Source of the DNA: Streptomycetaceae bacterium
GTDB taxonomy: Bacteria > Actinomycetota > Actinomycetes > Streptomycetales > Streptomycetaceae
Reading direction: 5' to 3'
DNA: 44,899 nt
Assembly: GCA_019243445.1 (NCBI GenBank)
Contig: JAFAUH010000095.1
Coordinates: forward strand, 1 to 44,899
In this document: positions 25,218 through 43,913 of the stretch, piece after piece
Layout: the number at the start of each line of letters is the position of its first letter
How positions within the stretch are numbered: the first letter of the stretch is position 1
The notes under the pieces: model-generated
The model's input: only the letters and a program-made list of their open reading frames with translations
Databases searched by the model: none
Told to the model about the DNA's origin: nothing
Program-made: the position numbers and the translations under genes

Positions 25218-25840
25218 TTACCGCAGCCCGCGCGCCGCTGCGACTGCTGCGGCGATCACGAAAGCCATCCCGAGCACCGAGCGTGGGAAGCAGCCCTGAG
25301 CCATGGGGATTCCAGAGCTTCTGAGCTGGGCCAGGCGGAACCCTTGGCCTCCGTCTGGGAAGGACGCCGAGCACACCACGCGCACGCGCTCTTGTGGAGC
25401 ATGGCGGCGTACGCTCTCCATGACGCAGTCGAGTGCCTCCGATGGGGCTGGGTTCTTGCCTTGCCCGGTGACATCGATGAGCAGGCCCGCCGGGCCGTTG
25501 GGGAGGCGGGCCCAGAAGGCCGCGGCGTCGCGAGCTCCGGCGGCTTTGGCCTGGGTCCGCGCCTCGGTGAGCATCGGCTGCAGGTGACGCGGGGCGGGCT
25601 GCAGCGACAGGTCGGATTCATTACCGCGAGGTGGCTGCGCACCCCGGAAGCCGTCCACTTGCTCGGCGCTGAGGGAGCGTTTACGCGTGGTGGCCGCATC
25701 GATGACGAGCCCGAATCCGCCAGGGACTTCGGTCAGCAGCGCTGCCCGGTCGGTGGCGTGCTCCGTGACAGCCGCCCCCCGAAGTCCTCCAACGCATCCA
25801 GATCCACCCGCAGATCAGCTATCGGATCCCCCGCTGTCAC
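25218..25840 (-). pseudogene. Unrecognised gene, apparently frameshifted near its start
   Basis: A GTG at 25840 opens a frame starting MTAGDPIADLRVDLDALEDF that stops at 25733. An overlapping second frame continues with EVPGGFGLVIDAAT and, from about residue 60, runs to 25218, ending PRSVLGMAFVIAAAVAAARG. Its codons and residue choice look genuinely coding (FWARLPNGPAGLLIDVTG, VVCSASFPDGGQGF), but there is no good start before the GTG at 25658. Either one gene was broken by a frameshift around 25740-25780, or a short ORF precedes a 146-residue gene (25218-25658). I do not recognise the family; the N-terminal scrap resembles WXG100-like helices only loosely. Confidence 0.4.
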
Positions 25841-25986
25841 TCGCTGTACGGCCAGAGCACGACCCCGCACAGCGCACAGCGCACAGCGGGCACAGGCGCA
25901 GGCGCGACTCGTGGGCCAGCAGGCTCGCGTGCGGCACTCACAGCACCTCTACATGCCGCGTGAGTTCACTGTTTCGCGTGTGTGAC

Positions 25987-26023
25987 GTTACGGCACGGGA
26001 TGGTAACCGGTCGTGTCTAGCTT
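25987..26023 (+). promoter_or_regulatory. Possible GlnR-type region upstream of narK
   Basis: GTTAC (25987) and GTAAC (26003) lie 11 bases apart as inverted half-sites, followed by a TAGCTT -10-like box at 26018. GlnR boxes in Streptomyces are GTnAC/GAAAC half-sites at similar spacing; the fit here is partial. A like GTCAC-N6-GGGAT element with GTTAC occurs before the NnaR gene (27549-27570). Confidence 0.27.
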
Positions 26024-26064
26024 CGATATCGGAAAAAGTATCTCAGGCCGGGAGGCGTGACGTG

Positions 26065-27471
26065 ATGACCACCGCGACCACAGAACCAGGCGTAGGAGCT
26101 GCGGGAGCCGCAGGAGGACGCAAAGGGAGTCGCTGGATCGATAGTTGGGATCCGGAGGACGAGCAGTTCTGGGAGAGCACCGGCAAGCGGGTCGCGCTGC
26201 GCAATCTCGTCGTCTCGATCCTCTCCGAGCACATTGGCTTCTCCATTTGGAGCCTGTGGTCGGTGATGGTGCTGTTCATGGGCCCGAAGTACCACGTAGA
26301 CCCGGCCGGGAAGTTCTTCCTGGTCGCCACGCCGACGCTGGTCGGCAGCATCCTCCGCGTCCCGTATACGTTCGCGGTGGCGCGCTTCGGCGGGCGCAAC
26401 TGGACGATCATCAGTGCGACCCTGTTGCTCGTACCGTCCATCACGGCTGCTTTCATCATGCACCCCGGCACCTCGTACACGACCTTCATGGTGGTCGCGG
26501 CGCTCACCGGTGTCGGTGGGGGTAACTTCGCCTCTTCCATGACCAACATCAACTCCTTCTACCCGCTGCGGAAGAAGGGCTGGGCACTCGGCCTCAACGC
26601 GGGCGGCGGCAATCTCGGCGTGGCCGTCATCCAACTGATCGCGCTACTGGTGATCGGCACCACAGGGGTGATGCACCCGAAGATCGTCCTCGCCGTCTAC
26701 ATTCCCCTGATCGTCGTCGCTGCCGTGTTCGCCGCGGCCTTCATGGACAACCTTGCGCCGGTACGGAACGACACCGGTGCGGCCAAGGAAGTGGCCCGCG
26801 ACGCCCACACCTGGATCGTGTCCTTCCTCTACCTCGGCGCCTTCGGGTCGTTCATCGGCTACAGCTTCGCCTTCGGGCTGGTGCTGCAGAACCAGTTCCA
26901 CCGCACCCCGCTGCAGGCCGCCGCACTCACCTTCATCGGTCCGCTGATCGGCTCGCTGATCCGCCCGGTCGGCGGGCGACTCGCCGACCGCGTCGGCGGC
27001 GCGAAGATCACCTTGTGTGCGTTCCTCGCCATGGCCGCGGTGACGCTGCTGGTCATTGTCGCCTCCCTGCAGAAGTCGCTGCCGCTCTTCCTCGTCGGTT
27101 TCATCGCCCTGTTCACGCTCAGCGGTCTCGCCAACGGCTCCACATACAAGATGATCCCCGGTATCTTCCAGGCGAAGGCTGTGGCTCGCGGGCTCGAAGG
27201 CGAGCAGGCCGCCGCGTACGGGCGGCGGCTCTCCGGCGCCTCGATGGGACTGATCGGCGCAGTCGGCGCACTCGGCGGCCTCGGCATCAACCTTGCTTTC
27301 CGTGAATCCTTCCTCACTGCCAAGAGCGGGGTGCCCGCCTTCGTCGCATTCCTGGTCTTCTACGCGCTGTGCTCTGCGGTGACCTGGGCCGTATACCTCC
27401 GTACCGCTTCCGCAGCCGATCCGGCCGATGCGGCCCAGCCGCAGCGGCAGCTCACTTACGTGGAGGTGTAA
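26065..27471 (+). CDS. narK: Nitrate/nitrite transporter, NarK family
   Basis: 468 residues, twelve predicted helices of the major facilitator superfamily. The cytoplasmic N-terminus RWIDSWDPEDEQFWESTGK leads into EHIGFSIWSLWSVMV. The nitrate signatures GGNFASSMTNINSFYP and LGLNAGGGNLGVA (helix 5) and GPLIGSLIRPVGGRLADRVGG (between helices 8 and 9) are present. GGAGG at 26051 serves the ATG at 26065 or the GTG at 26062. It imports nitrate or exports nitrite. A strong terminator follows at once, and a NnaR-like regulator gene lies next. Confidence 0.93.
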   Translation: MTTATTEPGVGAAGAAGGRKGSRWIDSWDPEDEQFWESTGKRVALRNLVVSILSEHIGFSIWSLWSVMVLFMGPKYHVDPAGKFFLVATPTLVGSILRVPYTFAVARFGGRNWTIISATLLLVPSITAAFIMHPGTSYTTFMVVAALTGVGGGNFASSMTNINSFYPLRKKGWALGLNAGGGNLGVAVIQLIALLVIGTTGVMHPKIVLAVYIPLIVVAAVFAAAFMDNLAPVRNDTGAAKEVARDAHTWIVSFLYLGAFGSFIGYSFAFGLVLQNQFHRTPLQAAALTFIGPLIGSLIRPVGGRLADRVGGAKITLCAFLAMAAVTLLVIVASLQKSLPLFLVGFIALFTLSGLANGSTYKMIPGIFQAKAVARGLEGEQAAAYGRRLSGASMGLIGAVGALGGLGINLAFRESFLTAKSGVPAFVAFLVFYALCSAVTWAVYLRTASAADPADAAQPQRQLTYVEV

Positions 27472-27515
27472 CGACCTGGGGCAATAGGGAGCGGGTTCCC
27501 TATTGCCCCAAGTCG
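27472..27515 (+). terminator. Terminator after narK
   Basis: Fourteen exact base pairs (27477-27490 with 27497-27510), extended by four more after one mismatch, with a 6-base loop, starting at the narK stop codon. Confidence 0.88.
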
Positions 27516-27640
27516 TCACCCATGATGGTCGCGCAACACTGCGGAAGCGTCACTGACCTGGGATCGTTACGTGGAGTTGGCACCATTGTCACCGTTGCAT
27601 GATGGCACCCGGTGGCACATGTCCTGAGCGAGGCAGGTAA

Positions 27641-28810
27641 ATGTACCAAGCGCAGCCAAGCACCAAGTCCGAGCAGGTACCTCCGCTTGCCGGATTCACC
27701 GTGGGCGTGACCGCTGCCCGGCGCGCTGACGAGCTGGCCGCGCTGCTGGAGCGACGCGGAGCCATCGTCCAGCGGGCACCGGCGCTCCGTATCGTCCCGC
27801 TGCCGGACGATGCGGAACTGCTCGCTGCCACAAAGCAGCTGATAGACCAAGGCCCCGACATCGCCGTCGCCACCACCGCGATCGGCTTTCGCGGCTGGAT
27901 CGAAGCCGCCGAGGGCTGGGGCCTCGGCAGCGGGCTGCTGGAGCGGCTGGACGCCGCGGAGTTGCTCGCCCGCGGGCCGAAGGTACGGGGCGCCATTCGG
28001 GCCGCCGGTCTGAAGGAGGCGTGGTCACCGGCGTCCGAGTCGCTCGCCGAAGTGCTGGACCGGCTTCTTGAGCAAGGAGTCTCGGGCACCAGGATCGCCG
28101 TTCAGCTGCACGGCGAGCCCCTGCCCGGTTTCATCGAGGCGCTGCGTGAGGCGGGTGCCGAAGTCGTCAGCATCCCCGTCTACCGCTGGATGGAGCCGGA
28201 GGACATCACCCCGCTCGACCGCCTCCTCGACGCGACGGTGGCCCGCGGCCTCGACGCCCTCACTTTCACCAGTGCGCCCGCCGCGGTCTCGCTCCTCGAC
28301 CGCGCCGAGCGGCGCGGCCTGCTCGATCCGTTCCTCGAAGCGCTCCAGCGCAATGTGCTTGTCGCCTGCGTCGGACCGGTGACGGCGATGCCGCTGGAGG
28401 CGTGTGAGGTGCCCACTGTCCAGCCGGAACGCTTTCGCCTCGGCCCGCTCGTCCAGCTGCTCACGGTCGAACTTCCGCTGCGCGCAAGGGTGTTGCCGGT
28501 CGCCGGACACCGGATGGAGATCCGCGGGCACGCGGTGCTTGTCGACGGCGAGCTGCGCTGCGTACCGCCGGCCGGGATGGCGTTGCTGCGTGCCTTGGCC
28601 CGGCGCCCCGGCTGGGTTGTTCCCCGCGCCGATCTGCTGCGGTCGCTGCCCGGGACGGGATGCGATGAGCACGCCGTGGAGACGGCGATGACCCGACTGC
28701 GGGGGGCATTGGGCGCGCCCAAGATCGTGCAGACCGTGGTCAAACGGGGTTACCGCCTGGCGCTCGATACGGGCGCTGAAGGCAAGTACGCGACGCCCTC
28801 AGCGCCCTGA
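27641..28810 (+). CDS. nnaR: HemD-like/winged-helix nitrate regulator, NnaR type
   Basis: 389 residues. Residues about 15-265 are a uroporphyrinogen-III synthase (HemD) fold (GVTAARRADELAALLERRG, VQLHGEPLPGFIEALREAG, FTSAPAAVSLLDRA). Residues about 290-380 are an OmpR-like winged helix (ELRCVPPAGMALLRAL, then VETAMTRLRGALG, VQTVVKRGYRL). In S. coelicolor a protein of this architecture, NnaR, helps GlnR activate nitrate-assimilation genes; its place next to narK supports the same role. Whether the HemD part keeps enzyme activity or senses a tetrapyrrole is open. It is often annotated simply as HemD. ATG with GAGGCAGG upstream. Confidence 0.87.
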   Translation: MYQAQPSTKSEQVPPLAGFTVGVTAARRADELAALLERRGAIVQRAPALRIVPLPDDAELLAATKQLIDQGPDIAVATTAIGFRGWIEAAEGWGLGSGLLERLDAAELLARGPKVRGAIRAAGLKEAWSPASESLAEVLDRLLEQGVSGTRIAVQLHGEPLPGFIEALREAGAEVVSIPVYRWMEPEDITPLDRLLDATVARGLDALTFTSAPAAVSLLDRAERRGLLDPFLEALQRNVLVACVGPVTAMPLEACEVPTVQPERFRLGPLVQLLTVELPLRARVLPVAGHRMEIRGHAVLVDGELRCVPPAGMALLRALARRPGWVVPRADLLRSLPGTGCDEHAVETAMTRLRGALGAPKIVQTVVKRGYRLALDTGAEGKYATPSAP

Positions 28811-34085: not shown

Positions 34086-35435
34086 TCAGGCGCGCGTTTG
34101 GGCGGGGACGAGGGGGGCGGGGAGCTCCACCTGGCCGCCCAGGGCCGTGAGCTTGTCCAGGAAGTTCTCGTAGCCACGGTTGATCAGATCGATGCCGTGG
34201 ACTCGTGAGGTGCCCTGCGCGGCAAGGGCCGCGATCAGGTAGGAGAAGCCACCGCGCAGATCCGGGATGACCAGATCGGCGCCCTGCAGCTTCGTCGGGC
34301 CCGAGACGACCGCGGAGTGCAGGAAATTGCGCTGGCCGAAGCGGCACGGCGTACCGCCGAGGCACTCGCGGTAGAGCTGGATGTGCGCGCCCATCTGGTT
34401 GAGCGCCTCCGTGAAGCCCAGGCGCGACTCATACACCGTCTCGTGCACGATCGACAGGCCCGAAGCCTGTGTCAGGGCCACGACCAGCGGCTGCTGCCAG
34501 TCGGTCTGGAAGCCGGGGTGCACATCCGTCTCCAGCGCGATCGCGCTCAGCGCACCGCCCGGGTGCCAAAAGCGGATGCCTTCGTCGCCGATCTCAAAAG
34601 CGCCGCCGACCTTGCGGAAGGTGTTGAGGAACGTCATCATCTCGCGCTGGCCGGCGCCGCGCACGTAGACATTCCCCTTGGTCGCCAAGGCCGCACTCGC
34701 CCAGGAGGCCGCCTCCAGGCGATCGGGGAGCGCCCGGTGGGTGTAGCCGCTGAGATGGTCGACACCAGTGATCCGGATGGTCCGATCGGTATCCATGGAG
34801 ATGATCGCGCCCATTTTCTGCAGGACGCAGATCAAATCCTCGATCTCCGGCTCCACAGCCGCGTTCGACAGCTCGGTGACGCCCTCCGCGAGCACCGCGG
34901 TGAGCAGCACCTGCTCGGTCGCGCCGACCGAGGGGTAGGGCAGCCGGATCTTGGCACCGCGCAGCCGCTGCGGGGCTTCGAGGTATTGGCCCTCCGGGCG
35001 TTTCTCGATGATCGCGCCGAACTGTCGCAGCACCTCGAAGTGGAAGTCGATGGGGCGTCCGCCGATGTCGCAGCCGCCGAGGCCCGGGATGAACGCGTGC
35101 CCGAGCCGGTGCAGCAGCGGGCCGCAGAACAGGATCGGGATGCGCGAGGACCCGGCGTGCGTATCGATATCGGCGACGTTCGCGCTCTCCACATGCGACG
35201 GGTCGAGGACCAGCTCGCCCGGCTCCTCGCCGGGACCCACGGTGACGCCGTGCAACTGGAGTAGGCCACGCACCACGCGCACGTCGCGGATGTCAGGCAC
35301 ATTGCGCAGTCTGCTCGGCTCGCCGCCGAGCAAAGCGGCCACCATGGCTTTGGGTACGAGATTTTTCGCACCCCGGACGCGGATCTCGCCCTCGAGCGGG
35401 CTGCCGCCGTGGACAAGGAGGATGTCGTCGGTCAT
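34086..35435 (-). CDS. murA: UDP-N-acetylglucosamine 1-carboxyvinyltransferase
   Basis: 449 residues. First committed step of peptidoglycan synthesis: transfers enolpyruvyl from PEP to UDP-GlcNAc. Landmarks are the N-terminal GAKNLVPKAMVAALL and the loop LGGCDIGGRPIDFHF, whose Cys is the residue attacked by fosfomycin; it is present, so fosfomycin insensitivity by Cys-to-Asp change is not expected. DLRGGFSYLIAALAAQGTS is the family C-terminal signature. Convergent with hup and divergent from yqgE. Confidence 0.96.
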   Translation of the reverse strand: MTDDILLVHGGSPLEGEIRVRGAKNLVPKAMVAALLGGEPSRLRNVPDIRDVRVVRGLLQLHGVTVGPGEEPGELVLDPSHVESANVADIDTHAGSSRIPILFCGPLLHRLGHAFIPGLGGCDIGGRPIDFHFEVLRQFGAIIEKRPEGQYLEAPQRLRGAKIRLPYPSVGATEQVLLTAVLAEGVTELSNAAVEPEIEDLICVLQKMGAIISMDTDRTIRITGVDHLSGYTHRALPDRLEAASWASAALATKGNVYVRGAGQREMMTFLNTFRKVGGAFEIGDEGIRFWHPGGALSAIALETDVHPGFQTDWQQPLVVALTQASGLSIVHETVYESRLGFTEALNQMGAHIQLYRECLGGTPCRFGQRNFLHSAVVSGPTKLQGADLVIPDLRGGFSYLIAALAAQGTSRVHGIDLINRGYENFLDKLTALGGQVELPAPLVPAQTRA

Positions 35436-35658
35436 GGGGCTCGCGTTCCTGGAGACGGTCAGGACAGGAAGACGGGATAGCTACCGTCTCCGTACGGTCT
35501 ACGGCCCGCACACTGTGGATTCCGCAGCGGGTGCCGGGGAAATGTTAATGGGTTACACGACTGTCCCTGTCAAGACGAGCGCGCCTTCTGTCCGGGGTTG
35601 TCGCACTCGTCACGGGCGAGAACTCCCGTGATGCGTCAGGATGCGAGATCATGTGGTC

Positions 35659-36237
35659 ATGACGGAGGTGTCCTCGCTCACCGGACGGCTGCTCGTCGCG
35701 ACACCGGCCCTCGCGGACCCGAACTTCGACCGGGCGGTGGTCCTCCTCCTCGACCACGACGAGGAGGGCTCGCTCGGGGTCGTTCTCAACCGGCCGACGC
35801 CGGTGGGCGTCAGCGAGGTGCTGGAGTCGTGGGCGCAGCTCGCGGGCATCCCTCAGGTGGTGTTCCAGGGCGGACCCGTCTCGCTGGACTCGGCACTCGG
35901 CCTGGCCGTGGTGCCGGGAGATGCCCACAACGGCGAAGAGGACGAGCTGCTGGGCTGGCGGCGGGTACACGGCGCGATCGGCCTAGTGGACTTGGAGGCG
36001 CCGCCGGAGCTGCTCGCCGCCGAGCTCGGCTCCCTGCGGATCTTCGCGGGCTACTCGGGGTGGGGCCCCGGCCAGCTGGAGGACGAGTTGGTGGAAGGCG
36101 CGTGGTACGTGGTCGAGTCCGAGCCGGGGGATGTCTCCTCGCCGGATCCGGAGCAGCTGTGGCGCTCGGTGCTGCGACGACAGCGCAATGAGTTGGCGAT
36201 GGTCGCCACGTACCCGGATGATCCGTCCCTCAATTAG
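35659..36237 (+). CDS. YqgE/AlgH family protein
   Basis: 192 residues of the UPF0301 family: LTGRLLVATPALADPNFDRAV, LLDHDEEGSLGVVLNRP, VFQGGPVSLDSALG and IFAGYSGWGPGQLE are all conserved. Its biochemical role is unknown in any organism I can name. The frame starts at ATG 35641, which has AGGA directly upstream, but the family start MTEVSSLTG corresponds to 35659; either is possible. It is divergent from murA across about 220 bases in which I found no clear operator. Confidence 0.9.
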   Translation: MTEVSSLTGRLLVATPALADPNFDRAVVLLLDHDEEGSLGVVLNRPTPVGVSEVLESWAQLAGIPQVVFQGGPVSLDSALGLAVVPGDAHNGEEDELLGWRRVHGAIGLVDLEAPPELLAAELGSLRIFAGYSGWGPGQLEDELVEGAWYVVESEPGDVSSPDPEQLWRSVLRRQRNELAMVATYPDDPSLN

Positions 36238-36619: not shown

Positions 36620-36954
36620 GGTCGTCGGACGCCCGATCGAAGGGGCGCCCCCGATCGTGTGAGCCGTGGCCTGCAGCGCCACGGCACCGCCCGCGGGGCT
36701 GGCACGGTGGCACAGTAGGAACACGGCAAACAGTGCAACGCACCTGAAGGGCGCTCCTCCCTCACCGGATCATCAGCCCTGACGGTGACAGAACCGTCCT
36801 TAACGGACCTGCAAGGTTATCGGGCCGGAATGTGTGCCAAAGTTGCCGTGACCAGGCTGTCAGCACGTACGGTACGGCGACAGGCCCGGGGTCCCCCAGT
36901 CGGAGACCGGGGGCACTACCGGGGACGCCGTGGGCGGCGTGGAAGGGAAGCTGC
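36620..36954 (+). other. Non-coding gap upstream of the molybdenum hydroxylase operon
   Basis: About 335 bases without a supported gene. A GC-rich stretch near 36889-36924 has several CCGGGG/CCCCC runs that can fold in more than one way. The open frame reaching back to 36832 is rejected because GGAAGGGA at 36941 fits the GTG at 36955. The operon promoter should lie here; I could not place it or a regulator site. Confidence 0.45.
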
Positions 36955-37827
36955 GTGAGCACGTACACACGGCAAGCGGGGAGCACGGTGACGTTGCCCA
37001 CCTCGCTCGACGAGGCGGTGGCGGCACTCGCCGCCATGCCCGCAGCCGTGCCGGTCGCCGGCGGTACCGATCTGATGTCGGCCGTCAACTCGGGCTTGCT
37101 GCGCCCGGCCGCGCTCGTCGGCCTGGGCAGGATCAGCGAGATTCGCGGCTGGCAGTACGCGGACGGGAACGCCCTGCTCGGCGCCTGTCTCACCCACGCA
37201 CGCATGGGACGCTCCGACTTCGCCGCGCTCATCCCGGCGCTTGCCATGGCCGCGCGCGCCGCGGGCCCGCCGCAGATCCGCAACGCCGGAACGCTGGGCG
37301 GCAACATCGCAAACGCCGCCCCGACCGGCGATGCATTGCCGGTGCTCGCCGCGCTCGAAGCGACAGTGGTGCTCGCGGGGCCCGACGGCACCCGGGAGAT
37401 CCCTGTCGGCCACCTGACGGCCGGGCACGACCCGTTGCGCCCGGGCGAACTACTCGCCTACGTACGGGCACCGCTGCTGCACGCCCCGCAGACCTTCCTC
37501 AAAGCGACCACGCGCACTGGCCCGGGCCGCGCCACGGCGTCGGTCGCGCTCGTCCTCGATCCGGCGCGGCGCGGCGTGCGCTGCGCGATCGGCGCGGTGG
37601 CGCCCATGCCACTGCGGCCACTGGAGGCGGAGCGCTGGGTCTCCGGGCTGATCGACTGGGACGGCTCGCGGGCGCTGGAGCCGGAGGCCTGTACCGCGTT
37701 CGGCGACTATGCCGCCATGAGCTGCATCCCGGATCCCGCTGAGGGCGAACTGCCGCTTGCCCTGGCCCACCTGCGGCGTACGGTGGCCGCACTGGCCCGC
37801 CGAGCATTGGAGAGGGCACTTTCGTGA
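36955..37827 (+). CDS. Molybdenum hydroxylase FAD-binding subunit (XDH/CoxM-like)
   Basis: 290 residues. FAD-binding PCMH fold with VPVAGGTDLMSAVNSG near 42 and QIRNAGTLGGNIANAAPTGD near 105, the two conserved loops that hold FAD; C-terminal CO-dehydrogenase-flavoprotein domain. It would pass electrons from the Fe-S subunit to NAD or another acceptor. First gene of a three-gene operon in the order FAD, Fe-S, Mo; its TGA overlaps the GTG of the next gene by 4 bases. Confidence 0.9.
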   Translation: MSTYTRQAGSTVTLPTSLDEAVAALAAMPAAVPVAGGTDLMSAVNSGLLRPAALVGLGRISEIRGWQYADGNALLGACLTHARMGRSDFAALIPALAMAARAAGPPQIRNAGTLGGNIANAAPTGDALPVLAALEATVVLAGPDGTREIPVGHLTAGHDPLRPGELLAYVRAPLLHAPQTFLKATTRTGPGRATASVALVLDPARRGVRCAIGAVAPMPLRPLEAERWVSGLIDWDGSRALEPEACTAFGDYAAMSCIPDPAEGELPLALAHLRRTVAALARRALERALS

Positions 37828-38786
37828 CGGACGACGGGATCGGTGGCATGACGGGTCAGCCCGATCAGGGCTTCGTGCCAGGAGACGGAATGTGGCACCA
37901 GGGCCCGGGCGGCGCACACGACGCCGGTATGACACCGGAGCCGGTGCAGGCGCGCACGGAAGGGGACGCCGCCGATCAGTGGGCGATCCCCTTCGTTGTC
38001 GAGGACGCGGCCGACGAAACCGGCGAGTATTCCCTCGGCGTACCCGGCGTACCCGTGGCAGATCCCACTGCTCCCGCCTTTGACCCTGCCCGGCCCGCGC
38101 CCCCGGCGGATGGCTCGGCCGAGGGCCAAGCAGAAGGCCAAGCCGAGGACCCGCGCAGCGAACACCCCACCACTTCTTACGTCCTGCACGTCAACGGCGT
38201 CGACCGGCCCGTCACCGACGCCTGGCTCGGCGAATCCCTGCTCTACGTGCTGCGCGAGCGCCTCGGTCTTGCGGGCGCCAAGGACGGCTGCGAGCAGGGC
38301 GAATGCGGCGCCTGCTCGGTCGGGGTCGACGGCCGGCTCATCGCGTCCTGCCTCATGCCTGCCGCGACAGTCGCGGGCTGCGAGATCGTCACTGTCGAGG
38401 GCCTCAGCTGCGACGGAGGGCCTTCGGACGTGCAGCGCGCGCTCGCCGCCTCCAGCGCGGTGCAGTGCGGCTTTTGCCTGCCGGGGATGGCGATGGCCAT
38501 CCACGATCTGCTCGAAGGCAACCACCAGCCTTCCGAGTTGGAGATGCGGCAGGCGCTGAGTGGGAACTTGTGCCGCTGCTCCGGCTATAGCGGTGTGCTC
38601 CACGCGGTCCGCGAAGTCATCGCCGCCCGCCAAGCCTCCCTGCCCGCCGCCGCGGACGTTGCAGATGCTCAGCAGGACGCTGCAGACGGTCGGCAGCACA
38701 CTGAGGCCACCCGGATACCGCCCCAGGGAACACCTCCTGCCGCAGGCAGAGGAAGCTCCGGCCAAGCGGACGGAGGTATGACATGA
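37824..38786 (+). CDS. Molybdenum hydroxylase 2Fe-2S subunit with long extra ends
   Basis: 320 residues, about twice the usual 160. The core (about 115-270) has both clusters: plant-type CEQGECGAC...C, and the all-helical CGFC...CRC. Before it lies a 110-residue acidic, Pro/Gly-rich extension, and after it about 45 residues of Gln/Ala/Gly-rich tail; neither is part of the known fold and both look disordered. They could be tethers to the partners or a late addition. It relays electrons between Mo and FAD. Coupled to the upstream gene by a GTGA overlap. Confidence 0.9.
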   Translation: MTDDGIGGMTGQPDQGFVPGDGMWHQGPGGAHDAGMTPEPVQARTEGDAADQWAIPFVVEDAADETGEYSLGVPGVPVADPTAPAFDPARPAPPADGSAEGQAEGQAEDPRSEHPTTSYVLHVNGVDRPVTDAWLGESLLYVLRERLGLAGAKDGCEQGECGACSVGVDGRLIASCLMPAATVAGCEIVTVEGLSCDGGPSDVQRALAASSAVQCGFCLPGMAMAIHDLLEGNHQPSELEMRQALSGNLCRCSGYSGVLHAVREVIAARQASLPAAADVADAQQDAADGRQHTEATRIPPQGTPPAAGRGSSGQADGGMT

Positions 38787-38835: not shown

Positions 38836-41178
38836 ATGACCGGACCCGATGCGGTGACCGCAACGCCGACCGCGACCGGCGGCGGCACGACGGCCACCAC
38901 CAATCCCGCCTCCGTAGCCGACAAGTCGTACGGCCTCGGCGCATCAGTGCCGCCCGCCGACGCGGACGCCAAGACGCAGGGCGTCTTTCCCTACGCAGCC
39001 GACCTGTGGGCCGAGGGCCTGCTGTGGGCCGCAGTCCTGCGCTCCCCGCACCCGCACGCCCGTATCGTCTCCGTCGACACCCACGCCGCTGCCGAGATGC
39101 CGGGCGTGCGCGCCGTCGTCACCCACGAGGACGTCCCCGGCGACCTCATGCACGGACGCTGGGTCGCCGACCGGCCGGTCTTCGCCAAGGACATCGTCCG
39201 CTACCACGGCGAGCCGATTGCCGCCGTCGCCGCCGACCATCCCGGCACCGCGCGACTCGCCGCCGCCGCCATCGCCGTCGAGTACGAACTGCTCGAACCC
39301 GTCACCGACCCGGAGCAGGCATTCTCCGCCGAGGCGTTGCACCCCGACGGCAACCTGATCCGGCACATCCCGCTGCAGTTCGGCGACCCTGAAGCCACCG
39401 GCGAGGTCGTCGTCGAGGGCGTGTACCGGATCGGACGCCAGGACCCGGCACCGATCGGCGCCGAGGCCGGCCTCGCCGTGCCGCGCCCCGACGGCGGTGT
39501 CGAGCTGTATCTCGCTTCCACCGACCCGCACGCCGACCGCGATCTCGCGAGCGCCTGCTTCGGTCTCGAACCCGACCGCGTCAAAGTCGTGGTCACCGGT
39601 GTGCCCGGCGCCATGGCCGACCGCGAAGACCCCAGTTTCGGGCTGACGTTGGGGCTGTTGGCGTTGAAGACCGGCTGCCCGGTGAAGCTGGTGGCCACCC
39701 GCGAGGAGTCGTTCCTCGGCCATGCACACCGCCATCCGGCGCTGCTGTGCTACCGCCACCACGCCGACGCCGAGGGGCGTCTGGTCAAGGTCGAGGCGCA
39801 GATCCTGCTGGATGCGGGTGCATACGCCGACGCTTCGTCCGATGCGCTCGCCGCCGCCGTCTCCTTCGCGGCCGGCCCCTACGCCGTTCCCCATGTCTTC
39901 GTCGAGGGGTGGGCAGTCCGTACCAACAACCCGCCCTCGGGGCATGTACGCGGTGAGGGCGCAATGCAGGTGTGCGCCGCCTATGAAGGGCAGATGGACA
40001 AACTCGCGGCCCGACTCGGCCTCGATCCGGCCGAGTTGCGTATGCGCAATGTGATGGCCACCGGCGATCTGCTGCCCATCGGCCAGACCGTCACCTGCCC
40101 GGCCCCCGTCGGTGAGCTGCTGAAGGCGGTGCGCGACGCCGACCTGCCGCCGCTGCCCGCCGACGACGACGAGGCCGAATGGCTGCTGCCCGACGGCCCG
40201 GCGGGCGCGGGCGAGCCGGGAGCGGTGCGCCGGGGCGTCGGCTACGCGCTGGGCATGGTGCACATGCTGGGCGCCGAGGGCTACGACGAGGTCTCCACAG
40301 CGACGGTGCGGGTGCAGGACGGCGTGGCGACGGTGATCTGCGCGGCCGTCGACACCGGTCAGGGTTTCGCCACACTGGCGCGGCAGATCGTGCAGGAGGT
40401 GCTCGGCGTCGACGAGGTGCGGGTGCTGCCGGCCGACACCGACCAGCCGCCTGCCGGCCCCGCGGCGCGCGGCCGTCACACCTGGGTGTCCGGAGGAGCG
40501 GTGGAGCGGGCCGCGAAGATGGTGCGCACCCAACTGCTGCAGCCGCTCGCCGCCAAGTTCGGCATGTCGGTCGAGCTGCTCACCATTGTGGAGGGGAAGA
40601 TCACCTCCTACGACGGGGTGTTGAGCACGACGGTCGTCGAGGCGCTCGACGGCAAGGAGTTGTGGGCGACGGCGCAGTGCCGTCCTCATCCGACCGAGCG
40701 ACTTGACGATTCGGGGCAGGGCGATGCGTTTGTAGGGCTCGCCTTCGCAGCGGTACGGGCCGTGGTCGATGTGGACATCGAGTTGGGCTCGGTACGCGTC
40801 GTGGAGATGACGGTGGCCCAGGACGTGGGACGAGTGCTCAACCCCCGCCAGGTGGAGGCGCGGATCGAGGCCGGGGTCACGCAGGGCGTCGGTATGGCGC
40901 TGATGGAGGATCTGCGTACCTCACGCGGCACAGTCAAGCGCCCGTCGCTGACGGGATACGCTCTGCCGACGGCGCTGGACGCGCCGCAGGTACGGATCGT
41001 CAAGCTGGTCGAGGAGCGGGATGTAGTGGCGTCCTTCGGGGCGAAGGCGGTGAGCGCGGTCCCGGTAGTGACCTCACCGGCTGCGGTCGCCGCCGCGGTA
41101 CGTGCCGCCACCGGCCGTCCGGTCAGCCGCCTGCCGATCCGCCCGCAAGCGGCGGTGGCGAAGCCCGCGGGGGCATAG
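38836..41178 (+). CDS. Molybdenum hydroxylase large subunit with atypical active site
   Basis: 780 residues, xanthine dehydrogenase/aldehyde oxidase type (closest in shape to bacterial XDH large subunits, with the TREESFLGHAHRHPA segment). GGAGAGAAGG precedes the ATG. Three active-site motifs differ from the usual: GGxFGGxED reads PGAMADRED (257-265), RGFGxxQ reads R372-GEGAMQ, and the C-terminal GVGEP reads VSAVP so that Ala741 stands where the catalytic Glu is expected. The loop does not read AYRCSFR, so it is not a form I CO dehydrogenase. Overall fold is intact and there is no frameshift, so it may act on another substrate or be inactive. Confidence 0.88.
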   Translation: MTGPDAVTATPTATGGGTTATTNPASVADKSYGLGASVPPADADAKTQGVFPYAADLWAEGLLWAAVLRSPHPHARIVSVDTHAAAEMPGVRAVVTHEDVPGDLMHGRWVADRPVFAKDIVRYHGEPIAAVAADHPGTARLAAAAIAVEYELLEPVTDPEQAFSAEALHPDGNLIRHIPLQFGDPEATGEVVVEGVYRIGRQDPAPIGAEAGLAVPRPDGGVELYLASTDPHADRDLASACFGLEPDRVKVVVTGVPGAMADREDPSFGLTLGLLALKTGCPVKLVATREESFLGHAHRHPALLCYRHHADAEGRLVKVEAQILLDAGAYADASSDALAAAVSFAAGPYAVPHVFVEGWAVRTNNPPSGHVRGEGAMQVCAAYEGQMDKLAARLGLDPAELRMRNVMATGDLLPIGQTVTCPAPVGELLKAVRDADLPPLPADDDEAEWLLPDGPAGAGEPGAVRRGVGYALGMVHMLGAEGYDEVSTATVRVQDGVATVICAAVDTGQGFATLARQIVQEVLGVDEVRVLPADTDQPPAGPAARGRHTWVSGGAVERAAKMVRTQLLQPLAAKFGMSVELLTIVEGKITSYDGVLSTTVVEALDGKELWATAQCRPHPTERLDDSGQGDAFVGLAFAAVRAVVDVDIELGSVRVVEMTVAQDVGRVLNPRQVEARIEAGVTQGVGMALMEDLRTSRGTVKRPSLTGYALPTALDAPQVRIVKLVEERDVVASFGAKAVSAVPVVTSPAAVAAAVRAATGRPVSRLPIRPQAAVAKPAGA

Positions 41179-41189
41179 GGGCGTTCACC

Positions 41190-41264
41190 TGGAGGCCGTG
41201 ACCGGAATCGAACCGGTGTCACTCGCTTTGCAGGCGAGTCCCTCAACCACTCGGGCACACGGCC
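41190..41264 (-). tRNA. tRNA-Cys (GCA)
   Basis: Minus strand. Acceptor GGCCGTG/CACGGCC, anticodon stem CTCGC/GCGAG with loop CTGCAAA giving anticodon GCA, T-arm ACCGG-TTCGATT-CCGGT, discriminator U73 as expected for Cys. The CCA end appears encoded (41190-41192). It lies just after the Mo subunit gene and before a toxin-antitoxin pair. Confidence 0.95.
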
Positions 41265-41418: not shown

Positions 41419-41616
41419 ATGGCTGCTTTGAATGTGCGCTTCACCGACGAAGAACTCGAGGCCCTGCGCGATCGCGCGGCGGCTGAGGGGCGGAGCATGC
41501 AGGTGTTCGCCCACGATGCCGTGATCCACGCGATCAGCGAACGCACGCGTCTTTTCGAAGACGCGGCAGTGCACGTGCTGCAGGTGAGTGCTGAGCTCAA
41601 TCGGAGGCTCGCCTGA
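41419..41616 (+). CDS. Ribbon-helix-helix antitoxin of a Doc pair
   Basis: 65 residues. N-terminal strand LNVRFTDEELEALRDRAAAEGRSMQVFAHDAVIHAI is a ribbon-helix-helix (Arc/CopG-like) DNA-binding fold; the helical C-terminus would bind the toxin. Its TGA overlaps the toxin ATG by one base (TGATG), so the pair is translationally coupled. It should both neutralise Doc and repress the operon through the GGTACC elements upstream. Confidence 0.82.
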   Translation: MAALNVRFTDEELEALRDRAAAEGRSMQVFAHDAVIHAISERTRLFEDAAVHVLQVSAELNRRLA

Positions 41617-41984
41617 TGCACTACCTCACGCTCCCCGAGCTATTGAACCTTGCGCAACGGCTCGGGGCTGAGGAGGTGCGCGATTATGGTCTGCTGGAGT
41701 CCGCACTCGCCCGTCCGAGGGCCAGCGTGTTCGGGCAGGACGCGTATCCCGACGTATGGCACAAGGCTGCGGCTCTGATGGAGTCCATTGCCCGCAACCA
41801 CGCCATGGTCGACGGAAACAAGCGTCTCGCCTGGTATGCGACGTGGGTTTTCCTGCAGATCAACGGGCACCCGCTCCATTCACGCTTCGATGTCGACGAA
41901 GCCGAGGCATTCGTGCTGGATGTCCGTCAGGGCTTGCTTGACCTTCCCAAGATCGCTGAGGCGTTGCCGCGGTTTGCGGCGTAG
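41616..41984 (+). CDS. Doc/Fic-type toxin
   Basis: 122 residues, the usual size for Doc. The Fic motif reads H62-AMV-D66-G67-N68-K69-R70; Doc toxins with this motif phosphorylate EF-Tu and stop translation. The second position of the motif is Ala instead of the usual Pro; the catalytic His and the D/GNKR loop are kept, so activity is likely. It ends shortly before the helicase gene. It was probably inserted near the tRNA-Cys gene. Confidence 0.88.
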   Translation: MHYLTLPELLNLAQRLGAEEVRDYGLLESALARPRASVFGQDAYPDVWHKAAALMESIARNHAMVDGNKRLAWYATWVFLQINGHPLHSRFDVDEAEAFVLDVRQGLLDLPKIAEALPRFAA

Positions 41985-42128
41985 TACTCCCATGTGACCT
42001 GCATCCCACGTCCGGTGGGTGCCGCTGCGCCCCCCGCCTCGCGGCGGGACGCAGCGATAAGCTGTCACGGTTTTCGTACCCGAAGCACCAGGCGGCTCTG
42101 CCGTTTGACGACAACCTGCCCGGAGACC

Positions 42129-43913
42129 GTGACTACTCCCGCTTCCCATCACCTCTCACCGGCCTTTCCCGGCCGTGCCCCCTGGGGGACAGCCGGGAAG
42201 CTGCGCGCATGGCAGCAGGGCGCGTTGGATGCATACCTCCAAAAGCAGCCGCGCGACTTCCTCGCCGTGGCGACGCCCGGCGCCGGCAAAACCACCTTCG
42301 CGCTCACCCTTGCCTCGTATCTGCTGCACCACCACGTCGTGCAGCAGATCACCGTCGTCGCACCGACCGAACACCTGAAGAAACAGTGGTCGGAAGCGGC
42401 GGCACGGGTAGGCATCAAGCTCGACCCGGACTACAGTGCAGGCCCCTTGCCCAAGGACTACCACGGTGCCGCCGTCACCTATGCGGGAGTGGGCGTACGC
42501 CCGATGCTGCACCGCAACCGCTGCGAGCAGCGCAAGACTCTTGTCATCCTCGATGAGATCCATCACGCGGGCGACAGCAAGTCGTGGGGCGAGGCATGCC
42601 TTGAGGCATTCGAACCGGCAACGCGGCGGCTGGCGTTGACGGGAACGCCGTTCCGTTCCGACACCAACCCCATCCCCTTCGTGACCTACGAAGAAGGCAA
42701 CGACGGCATCAGGCGCAGCTCCGCCGACTACACCTACGGCTACGGCAATGCACTCGCCGACGGCGTCGTCCGTCCCGTCATCTTCCTCTCCTACAGCGGC
42801 AATATGCGCTGGCGCACCAAGGCAGGCGACGAGGTCGCCGCCCGCCTCGGCGAGCCGATGACCAAGGACGCCATCGCCCAGGCATGGCGCACCGCGCTCG
42901 CGCCCACCGGTGAGTGGATCCCCAACGTGCTGCGCTCCGCGGACCAGCGGCTCACCGAAGTCAGAAAAGCCATCCCGGACGCCGGTGGGCTCGTCATCGC
43001 CTCCGACCAGGACTCGGCGCGCGCCTACGCCAAACTGATCCGCGAGATCACCGGCCACAAGGCGACCGTCGTGCTCTCCGACGACACCGGTGCCTCGAAG
43101 CGGATCGAGCAGTTCAGCGAGTCCGACGACCGGTGGATGGTCGCAGTCCGCATGGTGTCGGAGGGCGTGGACGTGCCCCGGCTCGCCGTCGGCGTCTATG
43201 CGACGACGATCTCGACGCCGCTGTTCTTTGCACAGGCGGTAGGCCGTTTCGTACGGTCACGGCGGCGCGGCGAGACTGCTTCCGTCTTCCTGCCGACCAT
43301 CCCGATGCTGCTCGGCTTCGCCGGTGAAATGGAAGTCGAGCGCGATCACGTCCTGGACCGGCCGAAGAAGACAGCGGGTGAGGAGGACATCTACGCCGAA
43401 GAGGAAAAACTCCTCGACGAGGCCAACAAGCAGCAGGACGAGGCGACCGACGACGAGCAGATGTCGTTCGAGGCACTGGAATCGGACGCCGTCTTCGACC
43501 GAGTGATGTACGACGGCGCCGAGTTCGGCATGCAGGCCCACACCGGCAGTGAGGAAGAACAGGATTACCTGGGCATTCCGGGCCTGCTTGAACCCGACCA
43601 GGTGCAACTGCTCCTGCAACGCCGCCAGGCCCGCCAGATCGCGCACAGCCGCAAGAAGCCGGACGCCGAGGCCGACCTGCTCGAACTCCCGGCAGAGCGC
43701 CGCCCGGTCGTCACCCACCGGGAGCTGCTGGAGCTGCGCAAGCGGCTCAACACGATGGTTTCGGCCTACACCCACCAGAGCGGCAAGCCGCACGGCGTCA
43801 TCCACAACGAACTGCGCAGGGTGTGCGGCGGCCCACCGAGCGCGGAGGCAACGGCCGGACAGATCGAGGCGCGCATCGCCAAGGTGCAGGAGTGGGCGAC
43901 GCGCATGCGCTGA
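42129..43913 (+). CDS. DEAD/DEAH-box (superfamily 2) helicase
   Basis: 594 residues. Superfamily 2 motifs in order: Walker A VATPGAGKTTF, Ib-like VVAPTEHLKKQW, DEIH box ILDEIHHAGDS, motif III LTGTPFRSD, and C-terminal VRMVSEGVDVPR and QAVGRFVRSRRRGE. Acidic Glu-rich linker near 430-480 and a basic C-terminus. It resembles a helicase conserved across Streptomyces; whether it acts on DNA or RNA is not known to me. The GTG at 42129 has GGAG upstream and fits the family N-terminus; the frame is open to 41994 but that part looks non-coding. Confidence 0.87.
   Translation: MTTPASHHLSPAFPGRAPWGTAGKLRAWQQGALDAYLQKQPRDFLAVATPGAGKTTFALTLASYLLHHHVVQQITVVAPTEHLKKQWSEAAARVGIKLDPDYSAGPLPKDYHGAAVTYAGVGVRPMLHRNRCEQRKTLVILDEIHHAGDSKSWGEACLEAFEPATRRLALTGTPFRSDTNPIPFVTYEEGNDGIRRSSADYTYGYGNALADGVVRPVIFLSYSGNMRWRTKAGDEVAARLGEPMTKDAIAQAWRTALAPTGEWIPNVLRSADQRLTEVRKAIPDAGGLVIASDQDSARAYAKLIREITGHKATVVLSDDTGASKRIEQFSESDDRWMVAVRMVSEGVDVPRLAVGVYATTISTPLFFAQAVGRFVRSRRRGETASVFLPTIPMLLGFAGEMEVERDHVLDRPKKTAGEEDIYAEEEKLLDEANKQQDEATDDEQMSFEALESDAVFDRVMYDGAEFGMQAHTGSEEEQDYLGIPGLLEPDQVQLLLQRRQARQIAHSRKKPDAEADLLELPAERRPVVTHRELLELRKRLNTMVSAYTHQSGKPHGVIHNELRRVCGGPPSAEATAGQIEARIAKVQEWATRMR

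Follow-up and report, generated by a model that had tools for sequence, protein, structure and literature searches.

In the known members of the xanthine oxidase (XO) family of molybdenum hydroxylases, a glutamate takes a proton from Mo-OH and so starts hydroxylation. Both human XOR (PMC3509653) and mouse AOX1 (PMC2671166) lose their activity when this catalytic Glu is mutated. In Streptomyces coelicolor, SCO2940 is tabulated as 'putative oxidoreductase; xanthine dehydrogenase, putative' (PMC3770449), and a xanthine dehydrogenase cluster, not further specified, appears in a synteny survey from 2026 (PMC13118837); the passages of these two papers that concern them make no mention of an active-site change. 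SCO2940 is named by annotation alone in the open-access papers found, which report no function for it, and our search of the open-access literature returned no description of a complex or operon with such an altered active site. A further S. coelicolor gene, sco2939, is a sigma-E target recorded as a 'hypothetical protein' (PMC6767563) and is not drawn on here as evidence about the operon.

Here, we describe an operon whose product resembles these enzymes but has an altered active site, located in a window of 44,899 nt (the whole stretch of DNA that was analysed) from a member of the Streptomycetaceae. Its three genes lie on the + strand in the order FAD, 2x[2Fe-2S], Mo subunit. The FAD-binding subunit (36832..37827; FAD_binding_5; start codon uncertain, conserved part from approximately residue 50) carries the motifs AGGTDLM and TLGGNI and overlaps by 4 bases the 2x[2Fe-2S] subunit (37824..38786; Fer2 and Fer2_2), in which 8/8 cluster cysteines are present. 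The molybdopterin-binding large subunit, P0001 (38836..41178), starts 49 bases past the Fe-S subunit and is encoded by an ORF of 780 aa with an ATG start and 0 internal stops, bearing out the earlier note, which had described a full-length, in-frame gene in a tight operon with intact FAD and Fe-S partners. Ald_Xan_dh_C (a/b hammerhead), MoCoBD_1 and MoCoBD_2 were all detected in P0001 above the Pfam gathering scores; the closest curated NCBIfam model was PucD (TIGR03196, xanthine dehydrogenase subunit D), for which P0001 scored 638.5 bits, below the cut-off of 783.65. An AlphaFold model of P0001 (46-sequence alignment, mean pLDDT 65.8, pTM 0.48) has the XO-family fold (VIA-align Z ~22-34 against XO-family structures); as its pLDDT is below 50 at nearly all active-site loops of interest, it was used for overall fold alone and not to judge pocket geometry. 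Together with these domains and this fold, the partner FAD subunit and eight-cysteine 2x[2Fe-2S] subunit place P0001 by descent in the xanthine oxidase (molybdenum hydroxylase) family.

The Fe-S subunit also has a Pro/Gly/Glu-rich N-terminal extension (37824-38180, ~110 aa), which is partly conserved among the Streptomycetaceae and absent or unrelated in the orthologues of family f11. The genes flanking the operon, for which homology was computed and names were assigned by recognition, are presumably MurA (34086..35435, - strand) and a YqgE/AlgH-type gene (35641..36237, + strand) upstream and a helicase-like gene (41994..43913, + strand) downstream; all three are conserved neighbours and served as synteny anchors. 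A tRNA-Cys(gca) (41190..41264, - strand) adjoins the operon end here and in several other Streptomycetaceae, and just downstream is an ORF recognised as Doc/Fic-like (41616-41984). Further upstream, at 25687-28810, a nitrate/nitrite-transporter-like gene is followed by a uroporphyrinogen-III-synthase-like regulator, both named by recognition, a pair that we take to resemble narK-nnaR (SCO2959-SCO2958) of S. coelicolor.

Within P0001, four loops have been rewritten. The Mo/substrate loop GGxFGxRED (GGAFGxRED) reads PGAMADRED (codons 257-265, 39604..39630, + strand), RGFGxxQ (RGFGAVQ) reads RGEGAMQ (codons 372-378, 39949..39969, + strand), the pterin-side GSTSASRQTW reads GPAARGRHTW (codons 541-550, 40456..40485, + strand; SASRQTW to ARGRHTW) and KGVGEPP reads KAVSAVP (codons 737-743, 41044..41064, + strand), placing Ala741 at the position of the catalytic Glu. 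The earlier note had reported PGAMADRED at 257-265, RGEGAMQ at 372-378 and VSAVP with Ala741, all exactly where we find them (VSAVP at 739-743); it understated the extent of the active-site change, however, since the pterin-side segment and a further one (QDQAFLGPES to QDPAPIGAEA) are also altered. In a phmmer alignment to Desulfovibrio gigas aldehyde oxidoreductase (1SIJ), Met260/Ala261 correspond to Phe421/Gly422, Arg372 to Arg533, Glu374 to Tyr535 and Ala741 to Glu869; the bovine XO equivalents of sites 741 and 374 are presumably Glu1261 and Phe914. The catalytic Glu absent from site 741 is present in 29/29 intact homologues. A shifted or misaligned Glu was considered and rejected, as the alignment through the motif is ungapped, with no equivalent Glu one or two positions away and no acidic residue within ten positions of Ala741 (the nearest before it being Glu726, Glu727 and Asp729).

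The altered gene is a fixture of the family. Our sample comprised 294 genomes of the order, and each of its 279 Streptomycetaceae genomes contained the altered large-subunit gene (279/279), 276 of them with a match at E = 0 and three draft assemblies (G047, G091 and G217) with weaker matches; in G047 the gene is visibly split across two contigs. Among 133 distinct Streptomycetaceae proteins, site 741 is Ala in 130, Ser in two and Thr in one, and never an acid. The replacements co-occur in 133/133 of these proteins, a pattern across the clade for which the earlier note had proposed to look. Pro257, Glu374, Arg547-His548-Thr549-Trp550 and Lys737 are invariant in all 133, and four residues that are new relative to the intact enzymes (His370, Glu374, His548 and Ser740) are likewise invariant in the family. 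The Phe-Gly of the FGG loop beside Mo is not kept (positions 260-261): site 260 is Thr in 113 proteins, Met in 16, Ser in two, Leu in one and Ala in one, site 261 is Ala, Gly or Ser, and the pterin-side SAS positions (543-545) vary as well. Overall, the Streptomycetaceae replace 44 of the 206 positions that are invariant or nearly so in the 29 intact homologues. At the same time, core identity across the 133 proteins averages 92%, with identity of 99% or more at 415/741 core positions, and the median dN/dS is 0.147 (Nei-Gojobori counting, 2994 pairs, dS 0.1-0.9), a value that we take to show purifying selection only, as dS is biased in GC-rich sequence and the pairs are non-independent. A search of viral contigs for more diverse homologues returned 0 matches.

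Most of the genomes also contain an intact xanthine dehydrogenase paralogue, which, being only ~45% identical to the altered copy (G000:C192), is not readily confused with it. Fifteen Streptomycetaceae genomes showed a single match among the best three or fewer candidates scored per genome; in G040 and G041, where all candidates were scored, there was no second homologue at E<=1e-60. Some genomes thus keep the altered copy without an ordinary xanthine dehydrogenase.

The Fe-S ligands have been retained throughout. Each of the eight [2Fe-2S] cysteines occurs in 132-133 of the 133 Streptomycetaceae proteins, an unaligned end accounting for the missing cell, and 7/7 Catenulisporaceae have all eight. 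The Streptomycetaceae also retain the FAD motifs AGGTDLM and TLGGNI, which the Catenulisporaceae retain in part.

Gene order and phylogeny place the operon among intact relatives. The arrangement malate oxidoreductase - MurA - YqgE - (FAD-FeS-Mo) - helicase is common, in whole or in part, to the Streptomycetaceae, the Catenulisporaceae, G002 (the only genome from a further family of the order) and f11 genomes, with copies that are intact in two other actinobacterial families and still more altered in the Catenulisporaceae. In a maximum-likelihood tree, the Streptomycetaceae and Catenulisporaceae proteins grouped together (support 100/99) as sister to the G002 protein, L061 (100/99), and fell with the f11 proteins in one clade (99/99). 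L061 and its f11 relatives retain GGAFG and GxGEPP; the altered clade is nested inside an intact clade, its ancestor at this locus having been an intact enzyme. L061 itself keeps the Glu and the FGG loop, yet RGFG has become RGHG and SAS has become SVG. This partly changed orthologue (L061/L098: RGHG and SVGSRQ, but GAFG and GAGEPP retained) is a possible evolutionary intermediate; as L061 has His at the site of Glu374 while still encoding the Glu, its sequence suggests that change on the substrate side preceded loss of the base.

The Catenulisporaceae large subunits (L099, L100, L101, L102, L103, L109 and L113) are syntenic, far more altered and on very long branches. Their motifs read GGADTHRED or TGTRAGDDP and RGGG or PGGA, with Asp or Arg at site 741. 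A set of 28 intact enzymes shares 163 strictly invariant positions; of these, the Streptomycetaceae have altered 34, the Catenulisporaceae 76 and both families 27. A protein near-identical to one Catenulisporaceae copy (G003) comes from Catenulispora pinistramenti.

Taken together, these data suggest that the large subunit is probably no longer the annotated enzyme and has another conserved job. The explanation that we favour, with a probability of roughly 0.58, is that an ancient xanthine dehydrogenase-like complex lost its hydroxylase chemistry and has been maintained by selection as a redox complex whose pocket was remodelled. By position, the operon is orthologous to molybdenum hydroxylase complexes of the XDH/PucD type; in the Streptomycetaceae and Catenulisporaceae lineage, the catalytic Glu has disappeared from its large subunit and the Mo/substrate loops have been reshaped, while FAD and both [2Fe-2S] clusters have been retained. 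The fixed absence of the Glu, together with drift of the Phe-Gly beside Mo, argues against hydroxylation by the Mo-OH/Glu mechanism, which the complex would no longer perform. Purifying selection, perfect Fe-S ligands and the fixation of new charged residues speak for a new role rather than decay, and in that role the complex would act in flavin/iron-sulphur electron transfer, with the former Mo pocket housing a silent cofactor or another ligand and His370, Glu374 and His548 serving the new function. Tentatively, the complex might run without molybdenum altogether, with the Mo site swapped for another ligand or partner and with FAD and the clusters carrying electrons for some core process of the Streptomycetaceae and Catenulisporaceae. 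The earlier note had posed a choice between new substrate chemistry and a non-catalytic redox complex maintained by selection; its framing stands, with loss of the hydroxylase favoured and neither branch proven.

The first of these branches, in which the complex is still a Mo-cofactor enzyme of altered chemistry or substrate and draws its base from Glu374 or from the substrate, seems to us unlikely, though with evidence in its favour. Several predicted pterin contacts persist in the Streptomycetaceae (Arg372 and Gln683 are invariant and GQG is present in most large subunits), as does, in the Fe-S subunit, the Gln ahead of the second-cluster Cys (133/133 analysed; His in G041, L111), such that the complex may still bind the Mo-cofactor; it is this retention that keeps the explanation in contention. 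It would also fit the four new and invariant residues named above and the His that L061, with its Glu still in place, already has at the Glu374 site. Against it, the Streptomycetaceae show drift at the Phe/Gly of the FGG loop and in part of the Ser segment on the pterin side, and known enzymes are inactivated when the Glu at site 741 is substituted (PMC3509653, PMC2671166). The Catenulisporaceae, which have Gly or Pro in place of the Fe-S subunit Gln, have retained the complex despite a Gly at site 374; Glu374 is therefore no substitute base in general.

The distribution of Mo-cofactor genes did not separate these two explanations. MoaA was over the cut-off in 292/294 genomes, and the remaining two, both Streptomycetaceae (G142 and G252), had no MoaA match over the cut-off but did have MoaC and MoeA. 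MoaA, MoaC and MoeA are thus near-universal across the tested genomes, which include no naturally Mo-cofactor-free one; none demonstrates independence from Mo, and co-loss of the complex with cofactor synthesis is uninformative as evidence. The XdhC maturation factor in the window's genome adjoins the intact paralogue only; as the intact syntenic orthologues lack a neighbouring XdhC as well, its absence from the altered operon is weak evidence.

A non-redox pseudoenzyme, in which the Fe-S and FAD groups would be structural only and the complex would serve as a scaffold or regulator, is improbable. Such a role would accommodate a lost active site, the lack of a known substrate and universal retention, but purely structural clusters would be expected to have been lost in some lineages, and the eight cysteines survive even in the Catenulisporaceae, where 76/163 otherwise invariant positions have changed. 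Decay of a redundant XDH copy, to which the active-site replacements and the intact paralogue in most genomes might point, is already contradicted by the dN/dS of ~0.15, the open frame, the presence of the gene in 279/279 genomes, the strongly conserved core and its persistence where the paralogue is missing, none of which resembles a degraded pseudogene under relaxed selection. Finally, an ordinary xanthine dehydrogenase with a misaligned or shifted base, as the annotation and the best NCBIfam match (PucD) imply, is very hard to reconcile with an ungapped motif devoid of acids within ten positions in 133 like proteins and with a PucD score under the curated cut-off.

The preferred reading, loss of hydroxylase chemistry with retention as a redox complex, has consequences for annotation. 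A streptomycete protein annotated as xanthine dehydrogenase lacks the defining residue, yet all sampled genomes of the family encode it, and annotation transferred from the altered copy to purine catabolism and metabolic models is probably wrong. The locus is also a natural example of how a molybdenum hydroxylase complex can be repurposed with its electron-transfer chain kept, and its orthologues at a single syntenic site range from intact through intermediate and altered to strongly altered.

Among described systems, S. coelicolor offers a similar neighbourhood: in the relevant passages of two papers, SCO2940 lies near the malate oxidoreductase SCO2951 and SCO2958/nnaR (PMC3770449, PMC9739823), and it probably encodes one of the orthologous operon's subunits. 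In domain order, fold, partner subunits and operon form, the complex matches the PucD/XdhA-type three-subunit xanthine dehydrogenases (TIGR03196, NF043082), from which the window operon differs in lacking the catalytic Glu, the FGG Phe/Gly, the RGFG Phe, SASRQ and the Gly residues of GVGEPP, in its sub-threshold score and in having no adjacent XdhC, which the intact paralogue has. The large subunit has fold matches to nicotinate dehydrogenase (3HRD_A, Z 33.7 with the P0001 model) and to D. gigas aldehyde oxidoreductase (1SIJ, Z 24.7), whose Phe421, Gly422 and Glu869 are all replaced in P0001. The best phmmer match among solved structures is the alpha subunit of 4-hydroxybenzoyl-CoA reductase (1RM6), which likewise belongs to a three-subunit FAD/Fe-S/Mo complex and has His at the RGxG position, as in L061; however, there is no sign of its substrate pathway at the window, and 1RM6 retains both GGGFG and the Glu of ASEG.
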